Positions 16,942 to 62,359 of a DNA stretch of 64,000 nt are shown in pieces. The translations under genes were made by a program, and so were the position numbers. The DNA is from Nitrospira lenta (GTDB lineage: Bacteria; Nitrospirota; Nitrospiria; Nitrospirales; Nitrospiraceae), in contig NZ_OUNR01000016.1 in NCBI RefSeq assembly GCF_900403705.1, forward strand, positions 62,001 through 126,000, read 5' to 3'. Each line of letters opens with the position of its first letter. Position 1 is the first letter of the stretch. The notes below the pieces were generated by a model. The model did no database searches. It had not been told where the DNA came from and saw nothing but the letters and a program-made list of their open reading frames with translations.

Positions 16942-18207
16942 ATGAGCGGGACAAAGCAGATATCCATTGATCAACTCATACCGGGGATGTTCATCGTCGA
17001 GATGGATATTCCTTGGTATCGCACACCCTTCCTCTTCCATAAACGCCTGATTCGTGACCACGAAACAATCGGTGTAATGAAACAGCATGGCGTCCAACAC
17101 GTCACCATTGATACGACCAAAGGACTGGATGTGCAGGCGCAGGCACCCACGCCCTCCCCTCTGCCGGAGACATCAGCCGATGCGGAGCATGCCAGCCCTC
17201 CTGACAATACGCCATCGGAAGACTCCAGCTCAGTCCCTCCGGACGGCAGTGCGCTGCAGATTGCCGCCGTGTATGGGGAAGCACAAGAAGCCGTGGAACG
17301 CATCTTTGCCGATTTGGAACGCGGCGTTCCGCCGACTCCAGCTGCGACCAAGGTCATTGTGGGAGGGGTGATCAGCCAGGTCATGCAGGACCGCAGCGCC
17401 CTGTTGTTGCACAGTACCTTTCTCAAACTGAAACAGTTCGATCGTTCGCTGGGCGCCCATGCGCTGGATACGGCTATTTTATCGCTGGTCGTGGCAGTCG
17501 AGAGCGGCGTCGATCGGGCTCTCTATGAGCACTTGGGGACGGGAGCGCTCTTGCATGATGCCGGATACGTCCGCCTCCCCCGCAATCTGGTTCGTAAGCG
17601 AGATGAGTGCACTGAGTCGGAACAGCGGCTCTTGGAGCAGCACACCCAATTGGGCCTCCTTGTGCTCGGAGAGCGATCCGGCTTTCACCAGGAGGTGTGC
17701 CGCATTCTTGCAGAGCATCACGAGCGTTGCGATGGAAGCGGCTATCCGCGGAAGATGAAAGCCGCAGACATCTCGGCCCTGGCCCAAATCGTCGGGATAG
17801 TCGATCTCTATGACAAGATGGTCAGCCGTCGCGGCGGCCGGCCGGCGATGATCCCTCACGATGCGGTCCGCCAATTGTTTCTGGTCGGGGAACGCGGACA
17901 GTATCCCAAACCCTTAGTTGAGGCGGTGATTCGAAGTATCGGCGTATATCCGGTCGGAAGCCTCGTGCGTTTGAATACCGGCGAGCAAGCGGTGGTCGTT
18001 GGAGTGAATCCGGAACAGCGATTGAAACCGCAAGTGAAGATTACCGGCGGGCCGCACGGAGAGTTCTACTCCAATCCCGAACAAATCGACCTGTCTCTCC
18101 CTTCGCAGGATAAGGTCTCGCGGACGGTCTTGCGCGTGCTGGACCCTGCCCAGGAGCGCGTCAATATTGCCATGTACCTGGGTGATGTCGCGGAGCGGGC
18201 GGCCTAA
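16942..18207 (+). CDS. HD-GYP-family protein with DUF3391 N-terminus, altered active-site lysine
   Basis: A 421-residue paralogue of the protein encoded divergently. DUF3391 spans residues 1-60 (ISIDQLIPGMFIVEMD), a Ser/Pro-rich linker ~65-105, and HD-GYP ~155-340 with HDAGY (205-209) and HHERCDGSGYP (259-269). The Lys of HDxGK is Tyr here, while the metal-binding His/Asp residues and the GYP motif remain. Activity may be changed rather than lost. The stop overlaps the start of the hybrid kinase (TAATG), so the two proteins are made together and may share a signalling path. Confidence 0.85.
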   Translation: MSGTKQISIDQLIPGMFIVEMDIPWYRTPFLFHKRLIRDHETIGVMKQHGVQHVTIDTTKGLDVQAQAPTPSPLPETSADAEHASPPDNTPSEDSSSVPPDGSALQIAAVYGEAQEAVERIFADLERGVPPTPAATKVIVGGVISQVMQDRSALLLHSTFLKLKQFDRSLGAHALDTAILSLVVAVESGVDRALYEHLGTGALLHDAGYVRLPRNLVRKRDECTESEQRLLEQHTQLGLLVLGERSGFHQEVCRILAEHHERCDGSGYPRKMKAADISALAQIVGIVDLYDKMVSRRGGRPAMIPHDAVRQLFLVGERGQYPKPLVEAVIRSIGVYPVGSLVRLNTGEQAVVVGVNPEQRLKPQVKITGGPHGEFYSNPEQIDLSLPSQDKVSRTVLRVLDPAQERVNIAMYLGDVAERAA

Positions 18208-21047
18208 TGAAGCCACTTCCCCAACGGCGGCGGCCGGCGTCGACTCGGCCGACCAAGAAGAGGTCACTGCAGTCATACGAAGGGCTTTTGGACGGACTGC
18301 CGATCGGCGTCATCCTGGTGAGCCCGGATGGGGACATCTCGGCCATGAATGCCGAAGGCGCTCGTTTGTGCGGCGGAGTTGCCGCAGCTCCGATCGGGGC
18401 TTCATTTCCTGAATTGTGGGAGCGGTTGACGGGGCTGAGTGCCGGCGCCACCAAAGCTCTCCTTCAGGGGGTCCATCGCGAGAAACAACCCCGGCAGCCG
18501 GCTCAGGTGTCCATACGGCAAGGCCGAGGCCCTGCGATTCCTGTCGAGTGGACGTGTCAGCCGGTCAGTTTTGATCAACACACCGGAGTCTCCATTAGTC
18601 TTCACGATACCTCGCGAGAGCAGGAACTCACGCACGATCGCAATCGGCTCGCTTCCATTGCCGACGAGAGTCCCTACCCGATTCTTGAGCTCGACGGTCA
18701 GGCCAGCCTGATCTATGCCAATCCGGTGATGAGCGCCCTGTTGACGCGATTCGGCTATGGACCTGACGGATTCCCTCACGTCGTGCCGCAGGGCTTGCCG
18801 GATCTGGTGCGGCGCTGTTTGGATTCGAATGCGCCCATCCAGGAGATCGCCTCCCGCCTCCCCGACGCCTGTTATGCCTGGGTCTTTTGTCCTGTGAAGA
18901 CGGATCGCCATGTCCGCGGGTATGCCGTGGACTTGACGGAAGCACAGCGCGCCAAAGAGGCGCTCCACGCCTCGGCTGAGGAATTGATCGCGCAAAACCT
19001 GCGATTGGATCGGGCTCTGCAAGAAGCGCAGGCCGCCACGAAAATCAAAGCGGCGTTCCTCGCCACCGTCAGTCACGAATTACGCACCCCCATGAATGGG
19101 GTCATTGGAATGACCAACTTGTTACTGGATACCACGCTGGCTCCGGAACAGCGTTCGTATGCCGAGACCATTCGTCAGTGCGGGGAAGCACTGCTGCAAT
19201 TGATCAACGATGTCCTGGAGTGCAGCAAGATCGAAGCGGGTAAGCTCGAGTTGGAATCGATCGACTTCAATCTTCGCACGACGGTGGAAGATGTGCTCAA
19301 ATCGTTCGCTGAGCGGGCCGAGGCCAAGGGGTTGGAGCTGACCTGCCTCATACATGCGGCCGTGCCGACCGGATTGCGAGGCGATCCAGGCCGGCTCCGC
19401 CAGGTCCTGACCAATCTTCTCGGCAATGCGATTAAGTTTACCGAGCATGGCGATGTCACCCTCCAGGTGTATCTCGAAGAGGAGACCGAGGGGGATGCCC
19501 TGCTCCGATTTGACGTGACGGACAGCGGCATCGGGATCAGCGAAGACACGCAACGCAAGTTGTTTCAACCCTTTGTCCAAGCCGATTCGTCTATGAGCCG
19601 GCGATATGGAGGAACGGGACTGGGCTTGTCGATCTCCAAGCAGTTGATTGAATTGATGGGTGGGCAGATCGGCGTAAAAAGCGCGCCGGAGCGCGGCAGC
19701 ACCTTCTGGTGTACGGCCCGTTTCCCGAAGCAGTCCTCGTCGGTCTTGGCGATTCTTCCCCTGGCGGACCTGCAAGGTCACCGCGTCCTTATCGTGGATG
19801 ACAATGAATCCAACCGGCTCATCTTGCATCATCTAGTCTCCGGCTGGGGCATGCAGGATGTGTTGGCGGAGGACGCGGCCAGCGCCCTGGCGCGGATCGA
19901 GGACGCGGCTCAGCGCGGCACCCCATTCGATTGCGCCATTGTGGATATCGTGATGCCGGGTAAAGACGGGCTTCAATTAGCGGCTGAACTTCAGCGATTG
20001 CCCAGCGCCGCCACGCTGCGGATTGTCGTCATGACCTCGCTCTTGCAACGGGGGCATGCCGAGCGCGCGCGTAAGGTCGGGGCGAAGGGCTATCTCACGA
20101 AACCCGTCCGGCATGATGAATTGCGGGATTGTCTGCGCACGGTGCTCGGGATGGCCCCCGCGTCCGCTGAGACGCCCCAGGCCGATGAGGCCGTGCCTCG
20201 GTTAGTCACGCGGCATACGCTGGCGGAGCTTTCCACGCGCCGACGGGTCCTAGTCGTTGAAGACAACAGCGTCAATCAAAAGCTCGCTGTGCGAATGCTG
20301 GAGAAGCTCGGCTACCGTCCCGATCTGGTCGAGAACGGGCAAGAAGCATTAACGGCGCTCGACGCGGGAGGGTATGACGCCGTCCTCATGGATTGCCAGA
20401 TGCCGATCATGGATGGATTCGAGGCGACTGCGGCAATTCGCCGGCAGGAAGCAGCCGGTAAACGCTATAGCAGCGCCGGTCATTTGCCGATCATCGCCGT
20501 GACGGCCAATGCGATGCAAGGCGATCGTGAGCGGTGCCTGGCCTCCGGCATGGATGCCTATCTTGCGAAACCGATCAAGCTGGAAGATCTGCGTGTGACA
20601 CTGGCGCGATGGATCCAGTCTCCGGCCTCAGCTGAGTCGGATAAGAACGCGGTACAGAGCGCCGGTCCGCTGTCTGAAGGACGGGCCATCTTTGATCCCT
20701 CTCAAATGCTCCAGAATATTGGAGGCGATCAGGATCTCTTGCTCCAACTTGTGGATCTCTTCCTTGAACGTCAGGCCGACATGATGAGCCAGATCCGGCA
20801 AGCGCTGTCTCTTGGGGATGCCGTGACGGTCGAGCGTGCGGCTCACACACTCAAAGGCACCGCCGGCAATCTCTGCGCTCCGGAAGTGGTATTGGCCGCC
20901 GGGCGGTTAGAAGCCGTCGGCCGGCTAGGGACACTGCATGATGCTCCCGCCGTCTATGCGCACCTCGAAATGGAAATGCTGCGACTGTTGCGTGTGCTCG
21001 AAGAGTACCGTGGCCGGAGCGGAGGCCTCGCGCAGGCCGCGGCCTGA
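18207..21047 (+). CDS. Hybrid sensor histidine kinase (PAS-PAS-HisKA-HATPase-REC-REC-Hpt)
   Basis: A 946-residue soluble kinase with no membrane segment. Two PAS-like domains (~25-135 and ~145-245) precede a short coiled coil. HisKA has SHELRTPMNG (phospho-His ~290). HATPase has the N-box NLLGNAIKF and the G boxes DSGIGI and GGTGLGLS. The first receiver starts at VLIVDDNESN (~527; phospho-Asp in AIVDIVMPG) and the second at VLVVEDNSVN (~680; phospho-Asp in VLMDCQMPIMDG). A C-terminal Hpt domain has AAHTLKGTAGN (His ~879). This is a full BarA/LuxQ-type phosphorelay whose output regulator is not adjacent. The partner HD-GYP protein lacks a receiver, so any link is indirect. Confidence 0.9.
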   Translation: MKPLPQRRRPASTRPTKKRSLQSYEGLLDGLPIGVILVSPDGDISAMNAEGARLCGGVAAAPIGASFPELWERLTGLSAGATKALLQGVHREKQPRQPAQVSIRQGRGPAIPVEWTCQPVSFDQHTGVSISLHDTSREQELTHDRNRLASIADESPYPILELDGQASLIYANPVMSALLTRFGYGPDGFPHVVPQGLPDLVRRCLDSNAPIQEIASRLPDACYAWVFCPVKTDRHVRGYAVDLTEAQRAKEALHASAEELIAQNLRLDRALQEAQAATKIKAAFLATVSHELRTPMNGVIGMTNLLLDTTLAPEQRSYAETIRQCGEALLQLINDVLECSKIEAGKLELESIDFNLRTTVEDVLKSFAERAEAKGLELTCLIHAAVPTGLRGDPGRLRQVLTNLLGNAIKFTEHGDVTLQVYLEEETEGDALLRFDVTDSGIGISEDTQRKLFQPFVQADSSMSRRYGGTGLGLSISKQLIELMGGQIGVKSAPERGSTFWCTARFPKQSSSVLAILPLADLQGHRVLIVDDNESNRLILHHLVSGWGMQDVLAEDAASALARIEDAAQRGTPFDCAIVDIVMPGKDGLQLAAELQRLPSAATLRIVVMTSLLQRGHAERARKVGAKGYLTKPVRHDELRDCLRTVLGMAPASAETPQADEAVPRLVTRHTLAELSTRRRVLVVEDNSVNQKLAVRMLEKLGYRPDLVENGQEALTALDAGGYDAVLMDCQMPIMDGFEATAAIRRQEAAGKRYSSAGHLPIIAVTANAMQGDRERCLASGMDAYLAKPIKLEDLRVTLARWIQSPASAESDKNAVQSAGPLSEGRAIFDPSQMLQNIGGDQDLLLQLVDLFLERQADMMSQIRQALSLGDAVTVERAAHTLKGTAGNLCAPEVVLAAGRLEAVGRLGTLHDAPAVYAHLEMEMLRLLRVLEEYRGRSGGLAQAAA

Positions 21048-41556: not shown

Positions 41557-41925
41557 TTAGGCCAGTTGCTTGACACGTTCCGCCGCGCTCACCACATCGG
41601 TGAGCCTGATCCCGAACTTTTCGTTCACGACGACCACTTCGCCCTTGGCCACCAGCTTATTGTTCACCATGACTTCCATCGGTTCGCCGGCCAATTTATC
41701 GAGCTCGATGACCGAGCCTTGCGCGAGCTGCAAGAGGTCTCGAATCGCCATTTTCGTCGACCCGACGTAGATGGATACCTTCATCGGAATATCGAGAATG
41801 AAGTCGATATTCTTCGGCTGTTCCGCGACCGCCGTATTCGTTACCGGCGGAAACGAGGCCGGCGCCGCGGCGGCAGCCTCTTGCGTCGTCGTGTCGGCAG
41901 CTTGATTCACATCGTCGTCAGCCAT
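41557..41925 (-). CDS. fliN: Flagellar motor switch protein FliN
   Basis: A 122-residue FliN. An Ala/Pro-rich N-terminus is followed by the SpoA domain (LDIPMKVSIYVGSTKMAIRD, QGSVIELDKLAGEPMEVMVN, VAKGEVVVVNEKFGIRLTD). It forms the base of the C-ring and binds the FliH-FliI export ATPase. ATG 41925 has a GGGAG site. Confidence 0.96.
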   Translation of the reverse strand: MADDDVNQAADTTTQEAAAAAPASFPPVTNTAVAEQPKNIDFILDIPMKVSIYVGSTKMAIRDLLQLAQGSVIELDKLAGEPMEVMVNNKLVAKGEVVVVNEKFGIRLTDVVSAAERVKQLA

Positions 41926-41949: not shown

Positions 41950-42930
41950 TTACGCCAGCACTTTCGTGACACGACAGGCGTGATTGCCTTTAAATACCCC
42001 GGGGCTTCCCAAAAACTTGAGATAGTCCTCGACATAGCATTCCAGCGGATCGCCGGGGCGCTGATCCAGCATCACCACGTCGCCGGGCGCAAAGTTCAGC
42101 ACGTCCTGGACAGTGACGGTGGTGGAACCCAATTTCACCGCGATCGGCAACTCGCACTCATGAATCAGATCGCGGAACTTGCTGTTCCAGGACCCATCCT
42201 GTTCCAGCTGATCCGACACCAGTCCTGAGTAGAGCTTTTCCTTGATGGGTTCCAGCATCGAATAGGGATACACCACGAACAGATCCCGGGTGGTCTCCCC
42301 GATGATGACTTGCAGCGTCACTACAATGACGACCTCTGAAGCCGTCACTACCATGGCAAATTGGGGATTACTCTCGGAGCGCACATAATCCACCTTCACC
42401 GGCATAATCGCCTGCCAGGCCTTTTCCAAATCCGCGAGCGCCAACATGAGCAGCTTCTTGATCATGCGGAGTTGTACGGCGGTAAAGTCTCGCCCTTCGG
42501 GCTTCACATGCGTTTGTCCCTTCCCGCCGAAAAAATAGTCGACCAGCAGATACACGAGAAAGGCATCCATCACGAAGAGCCCGCTGCCTCGCAGAGGAGC
42601 CATGTGAAACACATTGAGCGAGGACGGCATGGGAATCTTTTTCAGAAACTCGCCGAATTTGATGACCTGTGTTCCGACCACGACAAATTCGATCGCTTCG
42701 CGGAGCACGCCGGTCCAGGCGACGGCTTGGCGCCGGACAAACCGATCGTTGATCATCTCCAGGGTCGGCATGCGTCCCCGGATAATCCGCTCCTGATTGA
42801 GGAGATCGTACCCCTTCACGCCGGTCGTCGCTTCCGCCGCCGTCTCGGCCGCCGGCGCGGTTTCGACTTCACCGGAGACCACGCCGTTCAACAGCGCATC
42901 GATCTCATCTTGTGAAAGAATCTTTTCCAT
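41950..42930 (-). CDS. fliM: Flagellar motor switch protein FliM
   Basis: A 326-residue FliM. The N-terminal CheY-binding peptide is kept (LSQDEIDALLNGV). The CheC-like middle has GSGLFVMDAFLVYLLVDYFFGG and the C-terminal SpoA domain has VQDVLNFAPGDVVMLDQRPGD. It receives CheY-P and sets rotation direction, so a chemotaxis system is expected elsewhere in the genome. Confidence 0.97.
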   Translation of the reverse strand: MEKILSQDEIDALLNGVVSGEVETAPAAETAAEATTGVKGYDLLNQERIIRGRMPTLEMINDRFVRRQAVAWTGVLREAIEFVVVGTQVIKFGEFLKKIPMPSSLNVFHMAPLRGSGLFVMDAFLVYLLVDYFFGGKGQTHVKPEGRDFTAVQLRMIKKLLMLALADLEKAWQAIMPVKVDYVRSESNPQFAMVVTASEVVIVVTLQVIIGETTRDLFVVYPYSMLEPIKEKLYSGLVSDQLEQDGSWNSKFRDLIHECELPIAVKLGSTTVTVQDVLNFAPGDVVMLDQRPGDPLECYVEDYLKFLGSPGVFKGNHACRVTKVLA

Positions 42931-49074: not shown

Positions 49075-49511
49075 GACAACGTATCTCCCTGGCCGGCAAA
49101 GCGATGATGCGCTGACTCATCCGTCGCCATCTGCTCGCGGCGGCGCATTTCCGTCAGGGCCGCCTCCCGATACCGCTCAATCAGACGATCCAATGTACGG
49201 CGATCCTGACTGGCGGCGACCAGTTTGGCTCGCGCCTCGTCCCATTGCAGTTGCCAATGCGCCAGCGTACGCCGGGCCTGCTCCGTGGCGGCCGCTTGCG
49301 CTTCAAAGTGCGATTGCCACTCCAGGAGTTGCTCGATGGTCAATCCTTGGCTGGTCTCTTCACGGTACCGCTCCTCCTGCTGCCGCTGATCGTCCGCCAA
49401 GCGCGCGATGGATTGTTCCGCCTGGAGGAGTTGCTGTGTAACTTCGGCCAGCTCCATCTTGAGCTGCTCCTCAATCTGAAGACGATAGTGTTGCAGCGAC
49501 TGTACGCTCAT
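49071..49511 (-). CDS. fliJ: Flagellar export protein FliJ
   Basis: A 146-residue, almost wholly coiled-coil protein (RLQIEEQLKMELAEVTQQLL; QQEERYREETSQGLTIEQLL) with the length (E. coli 147) and position after fliI expected of FliJ. It forms the central stalk in the FliI hexamer. Sequence conservation in the family is low, so the call rests on pattern and context. Overlaps fliI by 4 bp (ATGA). Confidence 0.88.
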   Translation of the reverse strand: MSVQSLQHYRLQIEEQLKMELAEVTQQLLQAEQSIARLADDQRQQEERYREETSQGLTIEQLLEWQSHFEAQAAATEQARRTLAHWQLQWDEARAKLVAASQDRRTLDRLIERYREAALTEMRRREQMATDESAHHRFAGQGDTLS

Positions 49512-50812
49512 GTCTGTTGTGCCAAGTTCAGAAGGTGCTGTCGAGACGCGGCAAAGTCAGCCGGTTGTTCGACCGCCTGGCGGAGATACCCGTTAATGGC
49601 GTCTTGTCCGCGCACCGCCCGATCCAGCGCGGCATTCATCCCCTGCTTATAGGCGCCGAGAAGAATAAGATCTTCGGATTGCCGATACCGCGCCATCAGT
49701 TCGATCGTTTGGCGCGCCGCCGCTTCATGTTCACGCGTGACAATGTCGCGCATGACCCGGCTGGTACTTTGGAGCAGGTCGATGGCCGGGAAGTGGTTTT
49801 GCGCCGCGAGGGTGCGTGAGAGGACGATGTGTCCATCCAGAATCGAACGCACCGTATCGGCGATCGGGTCGGACAGATCGTCGCCGTCCACCAGTACCGT
49901 ATACAACCCAGTAATCGTGCCGACGCCGGGACCGGTCCCCACTCGCTCCAGCAGTTTCGGTAACATGGCGAACACCGACGGCGTATAGCCTTTGGTCGTC
50001 GGCGGTTCGCCGATCGCCAAGCCGACCTCCCGTTGGCTGTAGGCCAACCGCGTCAGTGAGTCCATCATCAATAAGACCTGGCGTCCCTGATCGCGAAAAT
50101 ATTCGGCGATACAGGTTGCCACGAGCGATGCGCGCAGCCGGACCATCGGCGGTTGATCCGATGTGGCCACGATGACGACTGAGCGCTTCAAGGCTTCAGG
50201 TCCCAGATCGCGTTCCAGAAACTCATTCACCTCACGTCCGCGTTCGCCGATTAACGCAATGACATTGACGTCCGCCTGGGTATAGCGGCTAATCATTCCG
50301 AGCAAGACGCTTTTCCCGACGCCCGATCCGGCGAAGATCCCGACCTTCTGTCCGCGCCCGCAGGTCAAGAACCCGTTGATCGCCCGCACACCCAAATCCA
50401 ACGGGGTCGTGATCCGGTTCCGCGACAAGGGATTCGGCGGACTCGTCCGAAGTGGATAGTGGGCCTGCGCGACGAGCGGCCCTTTGCCGTCCAAGGGTTC
50501 CCCCAACCCATTCAAGACCCGTCCGAGCAGTGCGGGGCCAACGGCGAGTCCGGCCGCTTGACCAGTCATCGCAATGCGGCTCGATGGCCCGATCCCTTCC
50601 ATTTCTCCGAGCGGCATCAGCAAGACACGATCGCCTCGAAATCCTACGACTTCCGCTGGAATGATCCCTTTGCCGTCTTCCCTCGTGATGTGGCAGATGT
50701 CGCCGACCGTCGAGCGCGCGCCGGTGCCTTCAATGACCAGGCCGACGGCTTGCGCCACGCGCCCGGTAATGTCCAATGGTTCGACCTGATCGAGAAGATC
50801 ACTGAGCGACAT
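49508..50812 (-). CDS. fliI: Flagellum-specific export ATPase FliI
   Basis: 434 residues from ATG 50812 with an AGAGG site; an in-frame start at 50839 is less likely. F1-beta-like ATPase with P-loop FAGSGVGKSVLLGMI, IGERGREVNEFLERDLG, LLMMDSLTRLAYSQREVGLA and the C-terminal RYRQSEDLILLGAYKQG. It unloads substrates at the export gate. It overlaps the FliH-domain gene by 14 bp. Confidence 0.97.
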   Translation of the reverse strand: MSLSDLLDQVEPLDITGRVAQAVGLVIEGTGARSTVGDICHITREDGKGIIPAEVVGFRGDRVLLMPLGEMEGIGPSSRIAMTGQAAGLAVGPALLGRVLNGLGEPLDGKGPLVAQAHYPLRTSPPNPLSRNRITTPLDLGVRAINGFLTCGRGQKVGIFAGSGVGKSVLLGMISRYTQADVNVIALIGERGREVNEFLERDLGPEALKRSVVIVATSDQPPMVRLRASLVATCIAEYFRDQGRQVLLMMDSLTRLAYSQREVGLAIGEPPTTKGYTPSVFAMLPKLLERVGTGPGVGTITGLYTVLVDGDDLSDPIADTVRSILDGHIVLSRTLAAQNHFPAIDLLQSTSRVMRDIVTREHEAAARQTIELMARYRQSEDLILLGAYKQGMNAALDRAVRGQDAINGYLRQAVEQPADFAASRQHLLNLAQQT

Positions 50813-51848
50813 GTGTGCCTCTTGCGCGAAGCGCTTCACCTAGGCGGGAGAGTTGTGTCTCAAGCGAGGCATCGACCACTCGGTTGACTGTCTGCACGAT
50901 ACATCCTCCACGGGGCAACGTGATATCCGGTTCAATATGGAGCGAGAGCGTGAGATCGCCGACCCGGCTCAATTCGTCCCGCATCGCGTCCAGCGTTCCG
51001 GCATCGGCGGGATGCACCGTAATGGTCACGCGGCCGGACTCTTTCAACGCGGCCAGCGCCGATTTGGCTTGTGCCACCACTTGTTCTTTGACCTGCTCGG
51101 CGCGGTCGCGCAGCACTTTGGTGGCAATCTGAAAGGCTAGACTCACCACTTCTTCTTCCACGGTCTGATGCAAGGCCAGCCAGGCTTGATCGAATTTCCT
51201 CACGGCATTGGAGAGCACGGTCCGTTCATGACGCCGGCGTTCTTCATCACGGGCGCAGGCTCGCCGCTCGCCTTCGGCAATGCCGCGTTCAAATTCCGTC
51301 AGTCCATCTTGCCCGCGTGTGACCCCGTCTTCGCCGAATGTTTGCAAGACCATGCTGTGTACGCGCAAGCCGCCGGCTCGCACGACCGCATGTTTCAAGA
51401 CCGTGTTTTCCGCGCGTAAGGCGTGCAGTTCGAGCAATCGTCGAGCGGTCATCAGCATGACATCGTTCTGAATCGGCTTCATGAAGAACTCGGCTGCGCC
51501 GGCCTTCATGGCCCGGACGGCCAACTCGACGCTCGGCGATCCGGTCATGACGACGCTGATCACTCGTTGGTCGCAGGCTTGAATCTGCTCCAAGAGTTGA
51601 ATCCCATCCAGATCCGGCAGGGCAATGTCCACCATCACGAGCGCCGGGGGCGCTTGTTTCACCATCGCCAGCGCTTCCTGAGCGGTTCCGGCGACACGAA
51701 TGGCCACCCCTTCAGAACGAAAGAGTTCGATAAAGAGATTCCGGATAATCTCGTCATCATCGACGACGAGAATCGACCCGTGTAGTTTCGGCGTTCCGGA
51801 CGCAGCCGGCGCGGACAATCTCGCTGGCAGTGATACGCTCGTGGCCAT
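50799..51848 (-). CDS. fliH: CheY-like receiver domain fused to FliH (export ATPase regulator)
   Basis: A 349-residue protein with two parts. Residues ~22-145 are a receiver domain with all key residues: acidic pocket VVDDDE (30-32), phospho-Asp74 (VMVDIALPD), Thr102 (VMTGS) and Lys124 (FFMKPI). Residues ~185-349 are FliH: a charged helical region (GERRACARDEERRRHERT) and the conserved C-terminal domain (PRGGCIVQTVNRVVDASLET). FliH normally holds FliI inactive and anchors it to FliN through its N-terminus, which is replaced here by the receiver. The frame is continuous, the start has GGAGGAG, and the gene sits exactly between fliG and fliI, so this is the only FliH in the cluster and not a cloning or frameshift artefact. 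Confidence 0.9.
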   Translation of the reverse strand: MATSVSLPARLSAPAASGTPKLHGSILVVDDDEIIRNLFIELFRSEGVAIRVAGTAQEALAMVKQAPPALVMVDIALPDLDGIQLLEQIQACDQRVISVVMTGSPSVELAVRAMKAGAAEFFMKPIQNDVMLMTARRLLELHALRAENTVLKHAVVRAGGLRVHSMVLQTFGEDGVTRGQDGLTEFERGIAEGERRACARDEERRRHERTVLSNAVRKFDQAWLALHQTVEEEVVSLAFQIATKVLRDRAEQVKEQVVAQAKSALAALKESGRVTITVHPADAGTLDAMRDELSRVGDLTLSLHIEPDITLPRGGCIVQTVNRVVDASLETQLSRLGEALRARGTHVAQ

Positions 51849-52850
51849 TTACAGCATCTCCTCCCCTGCACCGGCCACCACAATCCGGCCCTCTTCCTCC
51901 AGTTTTCGGCACACTTTGAGGATGTTCTGCTGCGACCGCTCCACATCTGCGATTTTGACCGGGCCCTTGGATTCCATATCGTCCTTGAGCATCTCGGCCG
52001 CGCGGCTCGACATGTTTTTGAAGAATTTATCCTTAATATCGGAGTTAGCCCCACGCAGCGCCAAGGGCAGATCTTCTTTGCTGATTTCCTTCATCAGTTC
52101 CTGCATGCCGCGATCATCCAGCTTGATCAGGTCGTCGAAGACGAACATCAGGGCGCGGATCGCATCGGCCAGCGGCTGACTCTTCTCCGCGATCTTGGCC
52201 ATAATGTTGCCCTCGGTGCTCTTATCGAGTCGGGTCATGATATCGGCCATCATCTCCGTTCCGCCGAGCGATTGGGCACGCATGCCGGTATTCGACAAGA
52301 GCGCTTCCTGCATGGTGTTGCTGAGTTCCTCCAACACATCGGGTTGGACTTCTTCCATGGTCGCCACGCGCAAGGCGACGTCGCCTCGCAAGAACTCCGG
52401 CAGCTGAGCCAACAACTGACTGGCCTGTTCGCTCTCCAGATGCGCCAGAATGACGGCGATAGTTTGGGGATGTTCGATCTTAATCATACTGGCTAACGAT
52501 TTGGCTTCGACCCACTTCAAGGCTTCCAGGCCTGGATAGGATTTCCGCGTCATCGATTCGATGATGGCCTTGGCTTTTTCTGGACCCAGCGCTTTGATCA
52601 AGACGCTGCGAATATATTCATTGCCCTTAAATTGGACGTCTCCCGAGGCGCTCGCGCTTTCGAATTCTGAAATCACCACCGCTTCATCTTCCTTTGAGAT
52701 TTGGGCAGTGCCATTCATGTAATGACCGAGCTTCTTGATCTCCTTGGGATCGAGCTGCTTCATGACTTGAGCAGCCGCTTCTTCCCCGATGGCGCGCAGC
52801 AGAATCGCCGCCTTCTGTTCACCGGACATCTGTTTCGCGTCACCGGCCAT
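51849..52850 (-). CDS. fliG: Flagellar motor switch protein FliG
   Basis: A 333-residue FliG with the N-terminal FliF-binding domain (LSGEQKAAILLRAIGEEAAA-like start), the EHPQT motif (IEHPQTIAVILAHL), and the C-terminal torque helix (ALMFVFDDLIKLDDRGMQEL) with the charged residues that face the stator. Length matches the family (331). Its stop touches the start of the receiver-FliH gene. Confidence 0.97.
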   Translation of the reverse strand: MAGDAKQMSGEQKAAILLRAIGEEAAAQVMKQLDPKEIKKLGHYMNGTAQISKEDEAVVISEFESASASGDVQFKGNEYIRSVLIKALGPEKAKAIIESMTRKSYPGLEALKWVEAKSLASMIKIEHPQTIAVILAHLESEQASQLLAQLPEFLRGDVALRVATMEEVQPDVLEELSNTMQEALLSNTGMRAQSLGGTEMMADIMTRLDKSTEGNIMAKIAEKSQPLADAIRALMFVFDDLIKLDDRGMQELMKEISKEDLPLALRGANSDIKDKFFKNMSSRAAEMLKDDMESKGPVKIADVERSQQNILKVCRKLEEEGRIVVAGAGEEML

Positions 52851-55793: not shown

Positions 55794-57203
55794 TTACGAG
55801 TGCTCCGACATCGTCAGCGGCAGTTCCGTCTCACGATACTCTCGCAGTTTGTTCCGCAAGGTCCGGATGCTGATTCCCAGTTCTTTCGCCGCATGGGTCC
55901 GGTTATCCTTCACTCGCGATAATGTCTTGAAAATCAGCTCCCGCTCCATTTCCCAGAGCGATCCGTTCACGGCGGCCGGCGTGGCGGCTGGTGCCGGGTT
56001 CGCGGGCGCCGCCTGGTCTTGACGGGCGTCGGGAAGGTGCATCGGAAGAATGGTCCCCTGTCCGGCGAGCAAGACGGCACGCTCCATCACATTTTCAAGT
56101 TCCCGGACGTTCCCTTTCCACGCCAGTGTCTGGAGATGCGCCACGGCCGCTTCGGACAAGGCCGGTTGAGCGACGCCATTTCTGACGGCGGAGGCGCCAG
56201 TAAAATGGCGTGCCAGCAAGGCGATATCGGCCGGCCGTTCTCTCAGCGGCGGGACGGTAATGGGAAACACATTGAGCCGGTAATACAAGTCTTCCCGGAA
56301 GCGCCCCTGTTCCACTTCGCGATAGAGGGTACGGTTTGTGGTCGCGATCACCCGAATGTTGACGGCCACCGGATCGCGGCCGCCGATACGATCGACTTCC
56401 CGTTCCTGCAAGACTCGCAAGAGCTTGGCCTGCAAGCTCAAGTTCATTTCGCTGATTTCATCCAAAAGAATGGTGCCGGTGTGCGCCATTTCAAACTTGC
56501 CGATCTTCTTCATCATCGCCCCGGTAAACGCGCCGCGCTCATGTCCGAACAGCTCGCTTTCCAGCAAACCATCCGGCAAGGCGGCGCAATTCACGGCGAT
56601 GAACGGCCGGTGGGCGCGCGGACTGCGTGTATGGATGAACCGGGCCAGTAATTCCTTTCCGGTGCCGCTCTCGCCATTGATCAAGACGGTCGCTTGACTG
56701 GCTGCCACGCCCTCAACGGTGCTGAGCAACCGGATCATGCCGGGGTCTTGCGTCAGAATCGCACGGCCTTCAACGGCAGTCGAAGTGCCCGGAGAGTCGA
56801 GATCGCGCCCTTCTTTGAGATTGGCGATGACCCGTTCCAGCAAATCCATGGAGAACGGCTTGAGTAAATAGTCGCTCGCCCCGAACTTCATCGCATCCAC
56901 CGCGGTCTCCACGGTCCCATAGGCCGTCATCAGGACAATCACGGTCTGAGGGGCGCGCGCCTTGATGTCCTTGATGAGGTCCAACCCGGTCATGCGCGGC
57001 ATCTTCAGATCCGTAATGACCAGCCAGGGACGGAAGCGCGTCACCCGCTCTAACGCATCGGCCCCGTCGATGGCGCCTTGCACCTCATAGCCCAGTCGAC
57101 GCACGGATTCCATGAGCGCCGTGCGCATCGATGGTTCATCGTCCACGATAAGAATCCGCTCGGAGTGTTCACCGCCTTCTATGCTTGTTTCACGATCATT
57201 CAT
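55794..57203 (-). CDS. flrC: Sigma-54-dependent flagellar response regulator (FlrC/FleR-like)
   Basis: A 469-residue NtrC-family activator. Receiver: ILIVDDEPSM, phospho-Asp in VITDLKMPRMTG, Lys in YLLKPFS. AAA+ domain: GESGTGKELLARFIH and the sigma-54-contacting GAFTGA. C-terminal Fis-type helix-turn-helix: RTHAAKELGISIRTLRNKL. It should activate the sigma-54 promoters seen before flgB, fliL, flgF and possibly fliK. Translated with the kinase gene (8-bp overlap). Phosphorylation by the adjacent kinase is the natural reading. Confidence 0.9.
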   Translation of the reverse strand: MNDRETSIEGGEHSERILIVDDEPSMRTALMESVRRLGYEVQGAIDGADALERVTRFRPWLVITDLKMPRMTGLDLIKDIKARAPQTVIVLMTAYGTVETAVDAMKFGASDYLLKPFSMDLLERVIANLKEGRDLDSPGTSTAVEGRAILTQDPGMIRLLSTVEGVAASQATVLINGESGTGKELLARFIHTRSPRAHRPFIAVNCAALPDGLLESELFGHERGAFTGAMMKKIGKFEMAHTGTILLDEISEMNLSLQAKLLRVLQEREVDRIGGRDPVAVNIRVIATTNRTLYREVEQGRFREDLYYRLNVFPITVPPLRERPADIALLARHFTGASAVRNGVAQPALSEAAVAHLQTLAWKGNVRELENVMERAVLLAGQGTILPMHLPDARQDQAAPANPAPAATPAAVNGSLWEMERELIFKTLSRVKDNRTHAAKELGISIRTLRNKLREYRETELPLTMSEHS

Positions 57204-58500
57204 GGGTAGACTCCTCCATCAACTCGCTAAGGGCGATCGTTTTTGAATCGGACAGCGGTCTCTCCCCCTGGCCGTTCCATTCATGCGGTTCCCCGTCTCG
57301 CAGAGACGGTTCCGTCGGGTACGGCAGCAGGATGGTAAAGGTCGTGCCGTCACCGAGCCGGCTCTCGACATCGATCCGGCCATGATGCGCATCGATAATC
57401 GCATGGACGATCGCCAGCCCTAATCCGGTTCCCTCATCCTTCGTCGTAAAAAACGGATCGAAGATCCTGGACCGATGGGCCGGATCGATGCCGGGGCCAT
57501 TGTCGGCGATGGTCATGCAGATGGCGCGCCCGCCGAGGGCCTGCTCGTCCGCTTGCACGAGCTTGAGCGTCAGAATGCCTCCGGCGGGCATGGCTTGAAT
57601 GGCGTTCAGGATCAGGTTCAACACCACTTGCTTGAACTGCCCTTGGTTGCACCAGATCGCCGGAATCCGGGGATCGAGATCAAGCCGGATATCCACGGGG
57701 GTTTTGGTAATGGCGTGGGCTGCGAGGGTCAAGGCATCCAACACCAGCGTTTCGACAGGCTGCCACCCGCGTGCCGACCGCTCCGGTTGCGTATAGATCA
57801 ATAAATTCGACAGCAAACGATCGAGGCCATGGACTGCCTGCGAAATCTGTTCGGCGTAGGCCAGGCTTGCAGGCTGCTCGTGCAGGTCGCGCCGCAGCAT
57901 GGAGGCGAACAGTTCGATGCTGCCCAGCGGGTTGCGAATCTCATGGGCGATGCGTCCCACCATTTCACCCATCGCCACGAAGCGATGCTGGCGCTGCAGG
58001 CGTTCTTCCAATTGACACATCTTCGTCACATCGTGAATGAGGATCAGCTGGCCGGAAGACTGTCCCGGTGAGGCCTCCAATGAGCGTTGGGCGATGGTCA
58101 GTACATGAGACTCGTGCCGTTGAGGCTGTTCGCTCACGGTGAGCTGAAGCTCGGCCATGAGCGTGGCAGCGGATTGTCCCCTGAGCGTATCGGCGGGGCG
58201 GCTCAACAACCGGCTCGCGGCCGCATTCACTCGGGTGATATGACCGTCGAGATCCAGCACCAAGACTCCGGTCGTGAGGGAGTCCAAAATGCCATTCAGG
58301 TGTGCCCGCATCGCTTCATTTTCCTGAAGCTGCTGTCGCAAGGCAGCATTACTTTGCGAGAGCTCCACATCCATCTGTTCAATGCGGTCCGTCAGCGTGG
58401 AATAGGACTGCTGCAGCGTATGGGCCGCCTGATCAAACGTGTGAAAGGCCTCCTGAAGCAGATCGCGTTCAGCGGGATGCAATGCGGTCGATGTGGTCAT
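57196..58500 (-). CDS. flrB: Flagellar sensor histidine kinase (FlrB/FleS-like)
   Basis: A 434-residue soluble kinase. An N-terminal coiled coil (~15-65) precedes a PAS domain ([18 protein letters not shown]). HisKA has [18 protein letters not shown] (phospho-His ~190). HATPase has the N-box [14 protein letters not shown] and G boxes IADNGPGI and GTGLGLAIV. No membrane segment, as in FlrB/FleS, which sense the state of basal-body assembly. It lies between the TPR gene (4-bp overlap) and flrC (8-bp overlap). Confidence 0.9.
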
Positions 58501-60662
58501 AGTCCCTCCTGCGGCAATTGCCGTTCTTGTTTGATGCTTTCATGGATTGAGCTTGAAAACCGGGTTACCAGCGCGTCATCTGTCTGTCCGAGCTCGGCGA
58601 GCGCGACCGTGGCGCGATCGGGTTGTTTTAACGCCTGCCAGCCACGGACAATCTGAAGCCGAGCCCATTGGAGCTGAGACTGATTGGGCTTTTTCTCGAT
58701 GACGCTGTGGTATACGTCGATGGCCTCTTGATACCGTTTCATCTGTGCCAGCAGATCGGCATAGGCGAGCAGCGCGTCGATGGTCTTCGGCGCCCCTGCT
58801 TTAAAGGCCTCTTCTGTCGCAATCACGGCTTCCTCATGCTTGTTGAGGCGCAGAAACACCGTGGCCATCTGTTGATACATCCAGGGACGATCCGCATGTT
58901 GGGGATGATGGAGCATCCAGGCTCGGCAGAAATGCAGGAGGCCGGCCAGATCGCCCTCATCCGCCATCGTCTGCACCAGAAGATGGAGCGCTTCCTGCTC
59001 GCCCTGGCCGGTGGGATACTCCAAGCGATAGCGCTCCAGCACCTTTCTAGCTGCCGCCGTGTCGTGTTGCGAGAGATAAACCTTCGCCAGGCCTAGGAGT
59101 GCCTGTTCCGTCACCAGAGGGCGTTTGGTTCCTTTGGTCATCAGCTGATAAAGGCGGCCGGCTTCGGTCGTAAAGCCCAGGCGGTCGTGAGCATCGGCAA
59201 TTTCGAGCAGGAGTGGAGAAGATAAATAATGCCGTTCAGCAGCGGGCCCATGCCGATGAAAGAGGGTCGTCAGCGTCAAATCGTCGTGTGAGCGAACGGC
59301 GGCTTCCATCCAGGGACGCAAGATCGTGGCGAGGCGCTCGCCGGCTTTGGCCGGCCAGGGATCGTCAGGCCCTCCGCTGGACCGATCGGCGACCTGTTTA
59401 TAGGCGATCAACGCCGGTGCAATTTCCTCCGCTTGCTCCAGATGCGCAGCCACTTGAAAGAGCGCTTCGCTCCCGATGGCATCGTGGTCATGTTGCGCAG
59501 CCACCGCACGCATGTACTTGAGATACTCCTCCACACTCTGATTCGGAGGAGGCGTGTCATACATCAGCCTCGCCGCACTTTGGCTTGCCGACGGGGTTCC
59601 GTCCGCGGGAGTCTGTTTCACTCGCAGGGTGGCCAGGCGCACCGCCGCCAACGCTGCCGGCGGGGTCTCTACGTAGTGCGCCGCAATAAATCCATAAAAG
59701 AATTCCGCGCTGGGCAGGTATTGTGAGGACTGAAGGCTATCTGCCAGCCGCAAGAGCATGGCCGGCGCATCCTGGTGTGCGGGATACAGATTGTAAAATT
59801 GCAAGAGCAAGCCCCGGCCGATCACCTCATGGTGCAGTTCCAGTTGAATCGACGCATAGCGTCCGAGAGCCAGGGGGTTCATTCGCAGGGACTTTGGCCA
59901 GCGTCGATACGCCAGGTCATACATCGCCGACGCATCTTGAGTGCGCCGTTGATGAAAGAGGGACGAGGCCAGGCCCATGGTGGCGTGCAGCAGAATAAGA
60001 TCGTGACTGCTCCGTTTTCTCAAATCTTCGAACGTCAGCTCCGCATCCCTCCATTTATCCAGGGCCAACGCGGTATAGCCGAGGCCTAACAAGGCTCGCT
60101 CCCCGTCCGGCGACTGTGCATTGTGCGACAGCGCCCGCTCATACAGCGATTGGGCTTCCTGATGCCACCCTTGCGAGAGATACACATCGGCCATGCGCCA
60201 TTCCGCACGTTTTGCGTTCAGTGATTGCGGATAATCCCGCAGCAGCGTCTTGTATCGATCGAGCGCGTCCAGCCGGTTGCCGTTCGCCGTATCTTCCTTC
60301 AGCGAGGTTTCTGCGAGAAATGCCATGGCCGTGGGCGTCAGCGCGCTTTCCGGCTGTTGCGACACGACTTTTTCAAATAGCCTGCGGGCCTGACTCCACT
60401 CCCCCCTGCCATACGCGTTCAGGCCTTCCTGCAAGGCCAAGGCATCCATGCCTTGCGATTGTCCTTCGAGCCTCGGTCCGTCATCCGGCAAGTTGGTTAA
60501 GACAAGTTCGGCCGAGTCAGAGGCGTGAGCCGACGTGGAGGGCGTAGCCGTCGTCGAACCGGCATGCACGAGGGTAAGGTCTCCGGACGCCAGTGGGCGC
60601 AGGCAAAACCATGCGAGGAGCAAGAGGGTCAGTTGTGTCCAAGATCGGTGTGATGAGTACAC
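58497..60662 (-). CDS. Exported TPR-repeat protein co-encoded with FlrBC
   Basis: A 721-residue protein from GTG 60662; an in-frame stop lies just upstream, so no longer form is possible. A signal peptide (LTLLLLAWFCLRPLASG) is followed by many tetratricopeptide-like helical repeats, e.g. GEWSQARRLFEKVVSQQPES, ALDRYKTLLRDYPQS, GWHQEAQSLYERALSHNAQS and RYQEAIDVYHSVIEKKPNQS. It should be periplasmic or surface-held and act as a binding scaffold. Its stop overlaps flrB (ATGA), so it is made with the flagellar two-component pair; a link between envelope and FlrB is conceivable but unproven. I recognise no named family. Confidence 0.75.
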   Translation of the reverse strand: MYSSHRSWTQLTLLLLAWFCLRPLASGDLTLVHAGSTTATPSTSAHASDSAELVLTNLPDDGPRLEGQSQGMDALALQEGLNAYGRGEWSQARRLFEKVVSQQPESALTPTAMAFLAETSLKEDTANGNRLDALDRYKTLLRDYPQSLNAKRAEWRMADVYLSQGWHQEAQSLYERALSHNAQSPDGERALLGLGYTALALDKWRDAELTFEDLRKRSSHDLILLHATMGLASSLFHQRRTQDASAMYDLAYRRWPKSLRMNPLALGRYASIQLELHHEVIGRGLLLQFYNLYPAHQDAPAMLLRLADSLQSSQYLPSAEFFYGFIAAHYVETPPAALAAVRLATLRVKQTPADGTPSASQSAARLMYDTPPPNQSVEEYLKYMRAVAAQHDHDAIGSEALFQVAAHLEQAEEIAPALIAYKQVADRSSGGPDDPWPAKAGERLATILRPWMEAAVRSHDDLTLTTLFHRHGPAAERHYLSSPLLLEIADAHDRLGFTTEAGRLYQLMTKGTKRPLVTEQALLGLAKVYLSQHDTAAARKVLERYRLEYPTGQGEQEALHLLVQTMADEGDLAGLLHFCRAWMLHHPQHADRPWMYQQMATVFLRLNKHEEAVIATEEAFKAGAPKTIDALLAYADLLAQMKRYQEAIDVYHSVIEKKPNQSQLQWARLQIVRGWQALKQPDRATVALAELGQTDDALVTRFSSSIHESIKQERQLPQEGL

Positions 60663-60823: not shown

Positions 60824-62236
60824 CTAATTCGGAAAGGCATCGACGCGGGGTTTGGCGTCGATCCCTCGGCGTTTCAACTTCTCAACGAGTGTGGTGCGAT
60901 TGACGTGGAGCAGCTGCGCCGCGCGTGCGGTGACGCCGTTGGCTTTGCGCATGGCTTCTCCGATCAACTGATTCTCGTAGTGCTCCACTTCATTGGACAG
61001 ATGAATTCCGTCTTCGGTAAATCGGATGAACTGGTCCTTCATCTCTGGCTGACTGGCGGCTTTCTTGTGCAGCTTTTCGGGCAAGTCGGCAACGGTCAAG
61101 AGCCCCTGTTTCTTGAGCACGACCAGGCGCTCGATCATGTTTTCCAACTCGCGAATATTCCCGGGCCAGTGAAAAGCCGTCAACAACTCTAAGGCCTCAG
61201 GAGCAAGTCCCGAAATAGCGGTTTGCTTCATATGATTGAAGCGCTTCAGGAAATGTTCAATCAGCAATGGAATATCGCTTTGCCGGTCGCGCAACGGCGG
61301 CGTCACAATCGGAATGACGTTGAGGCGATAAAAGAGGTCTTGCCGGAAGCGTTTCTCCTCAACCATCTTTTCGAGGTCCTGGTTGGTGGCGGCGACAATT
61401 CGCACATCGACCTGGATCGTCCGGCTCCCTCCGACCCGCTCAAAGGATCGCTCTTGTATCACTCTCAACAGCTTGACCTGCAGGGAGAGACTCATCTCGC
61501 CGACTTCGTCGAGAAAGATCGTTCCGCCGTTGGCAAGTTCGAATCGGCCCATGCGTGTTTGGGCCGCGCCGGTGAAGGCGCCCTTTTCATGCCCAAACAG
61601 CTCTGATTCCAGCAACGTTTCAGGAATGGCTCCACAATTGACGGGCACCATGGGGCGATCTTTACGGGAACTATTGAAGTGGAGCATGCGCGCCACCAGT
61701 TCTTTTCCCGTTCCACTTTCCCCCTGAATCAACACGGTGCTGTCGCTGTCGGCGACTTTTTGCACAAAGTCCAGGACTTGCCGCATCGGTTCGCTGATCC
61801 CGATCAATTGTTCCAGGCGATACTGTTCGCGGACGGCTTTCCGAAGAAGATGGTTTTCCTGGCGGAGGCGTTGAAACTCGATGGCCTTTTTCACGACGAC
61901 TACCACGGTATCGGGGTCGAAAGGCTTCGTCACAAAATCGAAGGCGCCCGCTTTCATGGCCTGAACCGCACACTCCACGGTTCCAAATCCGGTCATGACG
62001 ATAGAAATGACCTTCGAGTCGATCCTCGTCACTCGTTCAATGACTTCGAGACCGTTAATATCCGGCAGCTGGAAGTCTGTCACCAGAATCTGAACGGGAC
62101 GTTCTTTGACGACTTGGATGCCCGTGGTGGCATCGGCGGCAACTGAAACGGTATAGCCCTCTGCAGACAATGTTTCCTGCAGGACGTCGCGCACCGCTTG
62201 GTCGTCGTCAATGACTAAAATATGAGGAGCAGTCAT
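60824..62236 (-). CDS. Sigma-54-dependent NtrC-family response regulator
   Basis: 470 residues from ATG 62236, where the receiver domain begins (ILVIDDDQAV; phospho-Asp in ILVTDFQLPDING; Lys in FVTKPFD). In-frame starts at 62275 and 62296 are possible; no ribosome site settles it. AAA+ domain with GESGTGKELVARMLH and GAFTGA; C-terminal Fis-type HTH in ARAAQLLHVNRTTLVEKL. It resembles the flagellar master activator role (FlrA/FleQ) by location, but unlike FleQ its receiver is fully conserved. No kinase is adjacent. It could be activated by the hybrid kinase or FlrB. Confidence 0.85.
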   Translation of the reverse strand: MTAPHILVIDDDQAVRDVLQETLSAEGYTVSVAADATTGIQVVKERPVQILVTDFQLPDINGLEVIERVTRIDSKVISIVMTGFGTVECAVQAMKAGAFDFVTKPFDPDTVVVVVKKAIEFQRLRQENHLLRKAVREQYRLEQLIGISEPMRQVLDFVQKVADSDSTVLIQGESGTGKELVARMLHFNSSRKDRPMVPVNCGAIPETLLESELFGHEKGAFTGAAQTRMGRFELANGGTIFLDEVGEMSLSLQVKLLRVIQERSFERVGGSRTIQVDVRIVAATNQDLEKMVEEKRFRQDLFYRLNVIPIVTPPLRDRQSDIPLLIEHFLKRFNHMKQTAISGLAPEALELLTAFHWPGNIRELENMIERLVVLKKQGLLTVADLPEKLHKKAASQPEMKDQFIRFTEDGIHLSNEVEHYENQLIGEAMRKANGVTARAAQLLHVNRTTLVEKLKRRGIDAKPRVDAFPN

Positions 62237-62359
62237 CAGATATTTATTCCGCAGCACGGGTAGAAGTTGGCGCATAGAATAAAGATCCTGTGGCATCAAT
62301 GCAAGCCTAACAAAGCATCACAGGCTGATTCGCCAATCGCAGGTTTCTCGACCAATTCC

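Follow-up and report, generated by a model that had tools for sequence, protein, structure and literature searches.

The analysis identified the fusion of a receiver domain (REC) to the flagellar export ATPase regulator FliH as a real and old trait of most flagellated Nitrospiraceae, and not as an accident of one genome. In the window, as we term the whole 64,000-nucleotide stretch of Nitrospira lenta DNA that was analysed, the fused gene and the parts of its product are arranged as follows.

50799..51848, minus strand: REC-FliH fusion gene, 349 aa (ORF list, translation, Pfam)
51453..51773, minus strand: receiver domain, residues 26-132 (Pfam, site conservation, predicted fold, structural matches)
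51627-51629, minus strand: phosphoacceptor D74, which with the acidic pair D30/D31, T102 and K124 makes up the receiver site
51315..51407, minus strand: conserved peptide predicted to be disordered, residues 148-178 (pLDDT, alignment A3, motif test)
51051..51296, minus strand: predicted long helix, expected to form a coiled coil, residues 185-266 (structure model)
50844..51227, minus strand: FliH domain, residues 208-335 (Pfam)

A previous sequence-only reading of this DNA had proposed that one open reading frame at 50799-51848 encodes both a receiver and FliH, and this was borne out with exact coordinates. Pfam searches with the 349-aa protein returned Response_reg (PF00072) at residues 26-132 (E 2.3e-23, 82.9 bits versus a gathering threshold of 30.2) and FliH (PF02108) at residues 208-335 (E 2.6e-20, 73.1 bits versus 24.1), together with a marginal OSCP match, and detected neither an AAA+ sigma-54 domain nor a DNA-binding domain. 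The gene lies on the minus strand, the plus-strand frame over the same positions containing stops. Its ATG abuts the fliG stop codon and has a GGAGGAG stretch directly upstream, and the N-terminus of the protein is hence well placed. A single FliH match was obtained in the whole assembly (3.76 Mb, 99.98% complete), which makes this the only FliH found in the genome.

The AlphaFold model of REC-FliH comprises a folded receiver (residues 24-147), a segment at 149-178 whose pLDDT is below 50, a long helix (185-266) and an alpha/beta FliH C-terminal domain; its pTM is 0.41, and the relative placement of the domains is therefore not to be trusted. With a predicted coiled coil followed by a C-terminal domain of the FliI-binding type, the window protein would fit FliH. 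Structure comparison using residues 22-151 of the model as the query revealed that the predicted receiver resembles the solved receivers of NtrX and NtrC1, including BeF3-bound or phosphorylated forms, with the 50 chains among the matches listed presenting Z scores of 20.6-22.9 and rmsd values of 1.0-3.3 over 116-133 residues. Residues 74, 102 and 124 are Asp, Thr and Lys as originally claimed, and both Pfam and the predicted fold outline a complete receiver.

The taxonomic spread of the fusion, which the sequence-only reading had put forward as a check, was mapped genome by genome. FliH is present in 68 of the 79 genomes of the window's genus and is fused in all 68, so that the receiver is not absent from close relatives. 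Across the family, FliH was detected in 129 of 175 genomes, 124 of which carry REC-FliH in one open frame; this count includes G061, in which the receiver is interrupted by the end of the contig. These 124 genomes yield 125 fused proteins, since G348 harbors two copies (L288 and L289) on two contigs, reflecting either a duplication or a mixed bin (listed contamination 3). In a separate named collection, both domains were found in one frame in 80/80 of the best 80 of 176 relatives, among them loci from N. moscoviensis NSP M-1 and Ca. N. defluvii. These two counts are the grounds for regarding the fusion as a character possessed by most family members. They also leave practically negligible probability to the explanation that a frameshift, an assembly artefact or some oddity of a single genome joined two genes, and a frameshift or assembly join was hence rejected. 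Both Pfam models were likewise matched by all 50 members of alignment A3. One fused locus, L272 (CAADGJ010000212.1), is titled uncultured Nitrosospira and contains the Nitrospira fusion; the title looks mislabelled.

The fusion is kept in 9 of the 12 genus-level groups of the family with FliH. A FliH devoid of a receiver was found in five family genomes (G133, G273, G207, G386 and G387), which form one clade (100/100), and the comparison of a sister-group placement of this clade with loss of the receiver returned an AU p of 0.447. The long frames of G273 (424 aa) and G207 (434 aa) were considered as a second kind of N-terminal fusion, which was rejected: Pfam detects nothing additional in them, and they appear to be frames extended in the upstream direction. 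In the phylum sample, FliH occurs in 162 of 295 genomes, 95 of which lie outside the family (as counted from the listing). No receiver was detected in any of 36 FliH sequences from elsewhere in the phylum (146 to 309 aa), among them every one of the 16 belonging to other parts of the order and class. For the other 59 out-of-family FliHs the evidence consists of open-frame lengths instead of sequences, and the frames among the rows listed reach at most 313 aa, too short for the fusion. Searches of a plasmid collection (72,556 records) returned 1632 records with a match and none in which a single place covered 80% of REC-FliH, and no REC-FliH was present among the 60 listed of 224 sequence matches to solved structures. 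The genome-by-genome search was made within the phylum of the window, and other phyla could also contain the fusion.

The residues of the receiver site are conserved to an uneven extent. Both Asp74 and Lys124 are present in 125/125 fused proteins, and position 102 is occupied by Thr in 121, Ser in three and Ala in one. Position 31, which by alignment corresponds to the metal ligand Asp13 of CheY, is Asp in 110 proteins, replaced in 14 and gapped in one; this single gap, at positions 30-32, arises because the G061 fusion runs off its contig. The replacements occur in 13 members of the window's genus (G059, G016, G078, G024, G063, G066, G017, G015, G012, G014, G003, G073 and G053) and in G191, and the receiver of G024 is devoid of both Asp31 and Thr102. 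This pattern suggests a receiver that looks functional in most lineages and presents signs of decay in a few, some of which may be turning it into a pseudo-receiver. Given the loss of Asp31 in 14 of 125 proteins, and additionally of Thr102 in G024, some lineages may do without phosphorylation.

The loss of Asp31 is also in line with a mainly structural role, in which the receiver and its linker helix would serve for dimerisation or positioning atop the FliH coiled coil and phosphorylation would be dispensable. NtrC-type receivers dimerise via this face and linker, and residues R137, L138, L139, L144 and R145 of the linker helix are at least 90% conserved in alignment A3. A purely structural module, however, would not require the invariance of Asp74 and Lys124, nor Thr or Ser at position 102 in 124 of 125 proteins, and we consider this explanation decidedly unlikely. 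The natural reading of a complete, near-invariant receiver fused to the sole FliH is that the export ATPase regulator receives input by phosphorylation, and the extra domain suggests a direct signalling input into the building of the flagellum.

The neighborhood of the fused gene contains further flagellar and signalling genes, of which FliG, FliI and the FlrB- and FlrC-like proteins were identified through Pfam.

51849..52850, minus strand: FliG, directly upstream of fliH, its stop abutting the fliH start
49508..50812, minus strand: FliI export ATPase, downstream of fliH and overlapping its end (ATG at 50812 used as the start; the ORF list gives GTG at 50839)
55794..57203, minus strand: FlrC-like response regulator; the fused receiver has a closer relative than the receiver of this protein
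57196..58500, minus strand: FlrB-like PAS histidine kinase, candidate phosphodonor
60824..62299, minus strand: NtrC-family regulator of the sigma-54 type with REC, AAA and Fis HTH domains, occupying the FlrA/FleQ position about 10 kb upstream of fliH
41950..42930, minus strand: FliM, with an N-terminal LSQDEIDALL segment presumably of the CheY-binding type
41590..41799, minus strand: match to the FliN C-terminal domain

In addition, a 721-aa TPR protein (58497-60662, minus strand) is encoded between the NtrC-family regulator and FlrB.

The receiver had been described as CheY-like, an ancestry that neither the genome search nor the trees upheld: both assign it to the NtrC type and place it nearest the receiver of the NtrC-family protein encoded at 60824-62299. 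A search of the window's genome with residues 21-160 returned 83 REC matches, the best of which after the query itself was this regulator (40% identity, E 8.9e-30), followed by a match at E 6.1e-21; FlrC was recovered at E 1.4e-15. A first tree of the receiver and linker grouped the fused and regulator receivers with an SH-aLRT of 99 (89 for the fused clade). When 17 long-branch or duplicate rows were omitted from the 92-row set, support rose to 100/98 for this grouping and 99/95 for the fused clade, and a grouping with FlrC returned an AU p of 0.028. A 73-row tree, omitting the same 17 rows as well as six REC-FliH and eight paralogue rows and incorporating 12 added ones, gave 100/100 and 99/97, with an AU p of 0.0126 for the FlrC grouping. 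Seven of the 13 FlrC rows are incomplete at their start, where they meet the edge of a sequence stretch; without them, and with the six complete FlrC rows kept, a 66-row tree returned 99/100 for the fused and regulator receivers, 100/96 for the fused clade and 6.5e-6 for the FlrC grouping. Derivation of the receiver from the neighboring FlrC was hence rejected by three careful trees and the genome search, although the full 92-row tree, which retained the long branches, did not reject a grouping with FlrC (AU p 0.122).

In these comparisons the fused receivers come out as one clade, closest to the receiver of the cluster's NtrC-family regulator. High-scoring matches to the regulator came from 22 of the 23 FliH-bearing genomes examined, and in 21 the gene maps to the same contig, about 10 kb from fliH; the one miss (G040) has fliH close to a contig end. 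It is also present in the REC-less members of the family and in two genomes of the neighboring family, while a genome devoid of FliH (G212) has only more distant paralogues. Nesting of the fused clade within the Nitrospiraceae diversity of the regulator returned p values of 0.343 and 0.163 in the 73-row tree. We infer that the receiver was copied once, from the regulator onto FliH, the direction following from the fact that the regulator, and not the fusion, extends to the neighboring family. The receivers of FleQ in Pseudomonas and FlrA in Vibrio are regarded as degenerate. The receiver site of the window regulator is intact, and this protein may be a true phospho-regulated master activator. 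Judging by its position, it may also be the FleQ homolog that Ushiki et al. describe, together with FleSR homologs, in Nitrospira sp. ND1 and N. defluvii, in the portion of that report available (PMC5767232).

According to the sequence-only reading, the receiver stands in place of the FliN-binding N-terminus of FliH. In Salmonella, residues 1-18 of FliH, preceding the coiled coil, bind FliM-FliN via W7, W10 and L15, and the N-terminal segment is also reported to touch FlhA (available part of PMC4443714). The stretch that follows the receiver in the window protein is predicted to be disordered, and V150, R157, G159 and F171 within it are at least 90% conserved in alignment A3. It thus resembles a short binding peptide, and residues 148-178 are a candidate adaptor peptide for the C-ring or export gate. 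A profile was built from 13 Nitrospirota FliH N-termini that fit the motif pattern (32 parsed, 39 available) and compared with shuffled linkers. In two early-branching fused proteins, those of G299 and G338, 0 of 1000 shuffles scored as well, the G338 score of 6.4 being barely above that of the best shuffle (6.0). The match in G384 is weak (7 of 1000 shuffles as good) and spans seven residues. The motif was not recognised in G340, G248, G191 and the window protein, in which 71, 358, 143 and 296 of 1000 shuffles, respectively, scored as well, and one linker in 164, that of G299, beat the best of 164 shuffles. Given the motif scores in G299 and G338 and the persistence of a conserved peptide between receiver and coiled coil, the receiver seems to have been added in front of FliH and not to have replaced its N-terminus. 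The likeliest reading is that it was joined to an intact FliH, with the peptide then diverging in most of the family.

On this basis the likeliest mechanism, which we propose tentatively and as a real possibility, is that phosphorylation tunes how FliH-FliI docks at the C-ring or export gate. A flagellar histidine kinase, one serving the NtrC-family regulator and possibly FlrB, would phosphorylate the fused receiver, and this would alter the receiver surface adjoining the disordered peptide that leads into the FliH coiled coil. The altered surface would in turn alter the docking of the FliH2-FliI complex on FliM-FliN or FlhA, and the same two-component signalling would then both control flagellar transcription and tune flagellar export. 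Because the equivalent stretch of Salmonella FliH binds FliM-FliN (PMC4443714, in the part available), a switch located beside it could gate docking.

The available part of PMC7064773 provides context for such a kinase. The activity of FlgS, FlrB and FleS depends on proteins of the MS ring, rotor and export gate, which would put a kinase of this type near FliH. Direct contact is reported there for FlgS. For FlrB and FleS no such contact with FliF or FliG came to light, and FliM and FliN proved dispensable; both points count against the docking model.

A rival mechanism, put forward in the sequence-only reading, is direct docking on the C-ring in CheY fashion, with the phosphorylated receiver binding the FliM N-terminus. 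The LSQDEIDALL segment of FliM and the fold common to REC and CheY are compatible with this rival, but the NtrC ancestry of the receiver and the other route by which FliH reaches FliM-FliN (PMC4443714, in the part available) argue against it, making it very unlikely.

The identity of the phosphodonor bears on a further alternative. Both FlrB and the hybrid kinase of the window had been put forward; FlrB stands as a candidate, the hybrid kinase gained no specific support, and the ancestry of the receiver suggests as donor the kinase that serves the NtrC-family regulator. This hybrid kinase (18207-21047, plus strand), which comprises PAS, HisKA and HATPase domains, two receivers and an Hpt domain, lies outside the flagellar operon and shares one base with a gene for a DUF3391 and HD-domain protein (16942-18207, plus strand), the two likely constituting a c-di-GMP/phosphorelay pair. 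At six helix-1 positions, which we take to be those that set kinase specificity (an assignment to which the title of 4ja2 lends partial support), the fused receiver shares one to four of six residues with the NtrC-family regulator in 15 genomes, and one of six with FlrC in the two usable genomes (the FlrC row of G268 is incomplete). Given this divergence, the choice of kinase partner may have drifted.

The paralogy of the fused and regulator receivers within one cluster, together with the dependence of FlrB/FleS/FlgS-type kinases on basal-body assembly (PMC7064773, available part), would also suit a phosphate sink, in which REC-FliH takes phosphoryl groups from the regulator's kinase, so that transcription receives feedback on how many FliH-FliI complexes exist or where they sit, while export itself is unregulated. 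A sink, however, has no need of fusion to FliH, and the helix-1 specificity positions of the two paralogues have diverged; we regard it as unlikely. Slightly less doubtful, and still improbable in our view, is a wider form of the docking proposal, in which one kinase phosphorylates both the NtrC-type activator and the paralogous receiver on FliH, switching expression and export together, with FliH reporting assembly back.

Apart from substrate switching, it is an open question in the field whether signalling gates flagellar type III export in time. The Nitrospiraceae, a nitrite-oxidising family of environmental and wastewater importance, have a phosphoacceptor built into FliH, and its retention in 9 of 12 genus-level groups makes post-translational control of the export ATPase complex directly testable through D74 point mutants. 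The sequence-only reading knew of no described FliH with a receiver, and we found no published REC-FliH in the open-access PubMed Central literature; nor is one described in the available portions of PMC5706428, PMC9321776, PMC2587704, PMC3180692, PMC6978683, PMC3372290, PMC10576176 and PMC3459982. A family-level REC-FliH fusion, with the appealing mechanism proposed here, thus appears to be absent from print as far as the open-access literature goes.

Among known systems, canonical FliH (PF02108; PRK05687, TIGR03825) has in common with REC-FliH the FliH domain, the long preceding helix, the fliG-fliH-fliI gene order and the single copy, and differs in that REC-FliH carries about 140 extra N-terminal residues forming the receiver. 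With respect to the Salmonella-type protein, the W7/W10/L15 adaptor peptide is not recognisable in the window REC-FliH. In the FlgSR/FlrBC/FleSR checkpoint a flagellar kinase and an NtrC-type regulator are tied to assembly of the export gate and MS ring, and the window encodes homologs of FlrB and FlrC, but the available part of PMC7064773 mentions no receiver within an export component and FliH appears in it 0 times. CheY presents the same receiver fold and phosphorylation-site residues, but stands alone and has another ancestry, whereas the fused receiver is attached to FliH and has NtrC-type proteins as its nearest relatives. The closest matches in sequence, tree and structure are the NtrC-family regulators (NtrX, NtrC1 and the regulator at 60824-62299), which present the same receiver and LRxEN linker helix; REC-FliH differs from them in having neither the AAA+ sigma-54 domain nor the helix-turn-helix, its output being FliH. 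The fusion also seems to be a clear instance of one receiver being common to a regulator of transcription and a structural part of a single machine.
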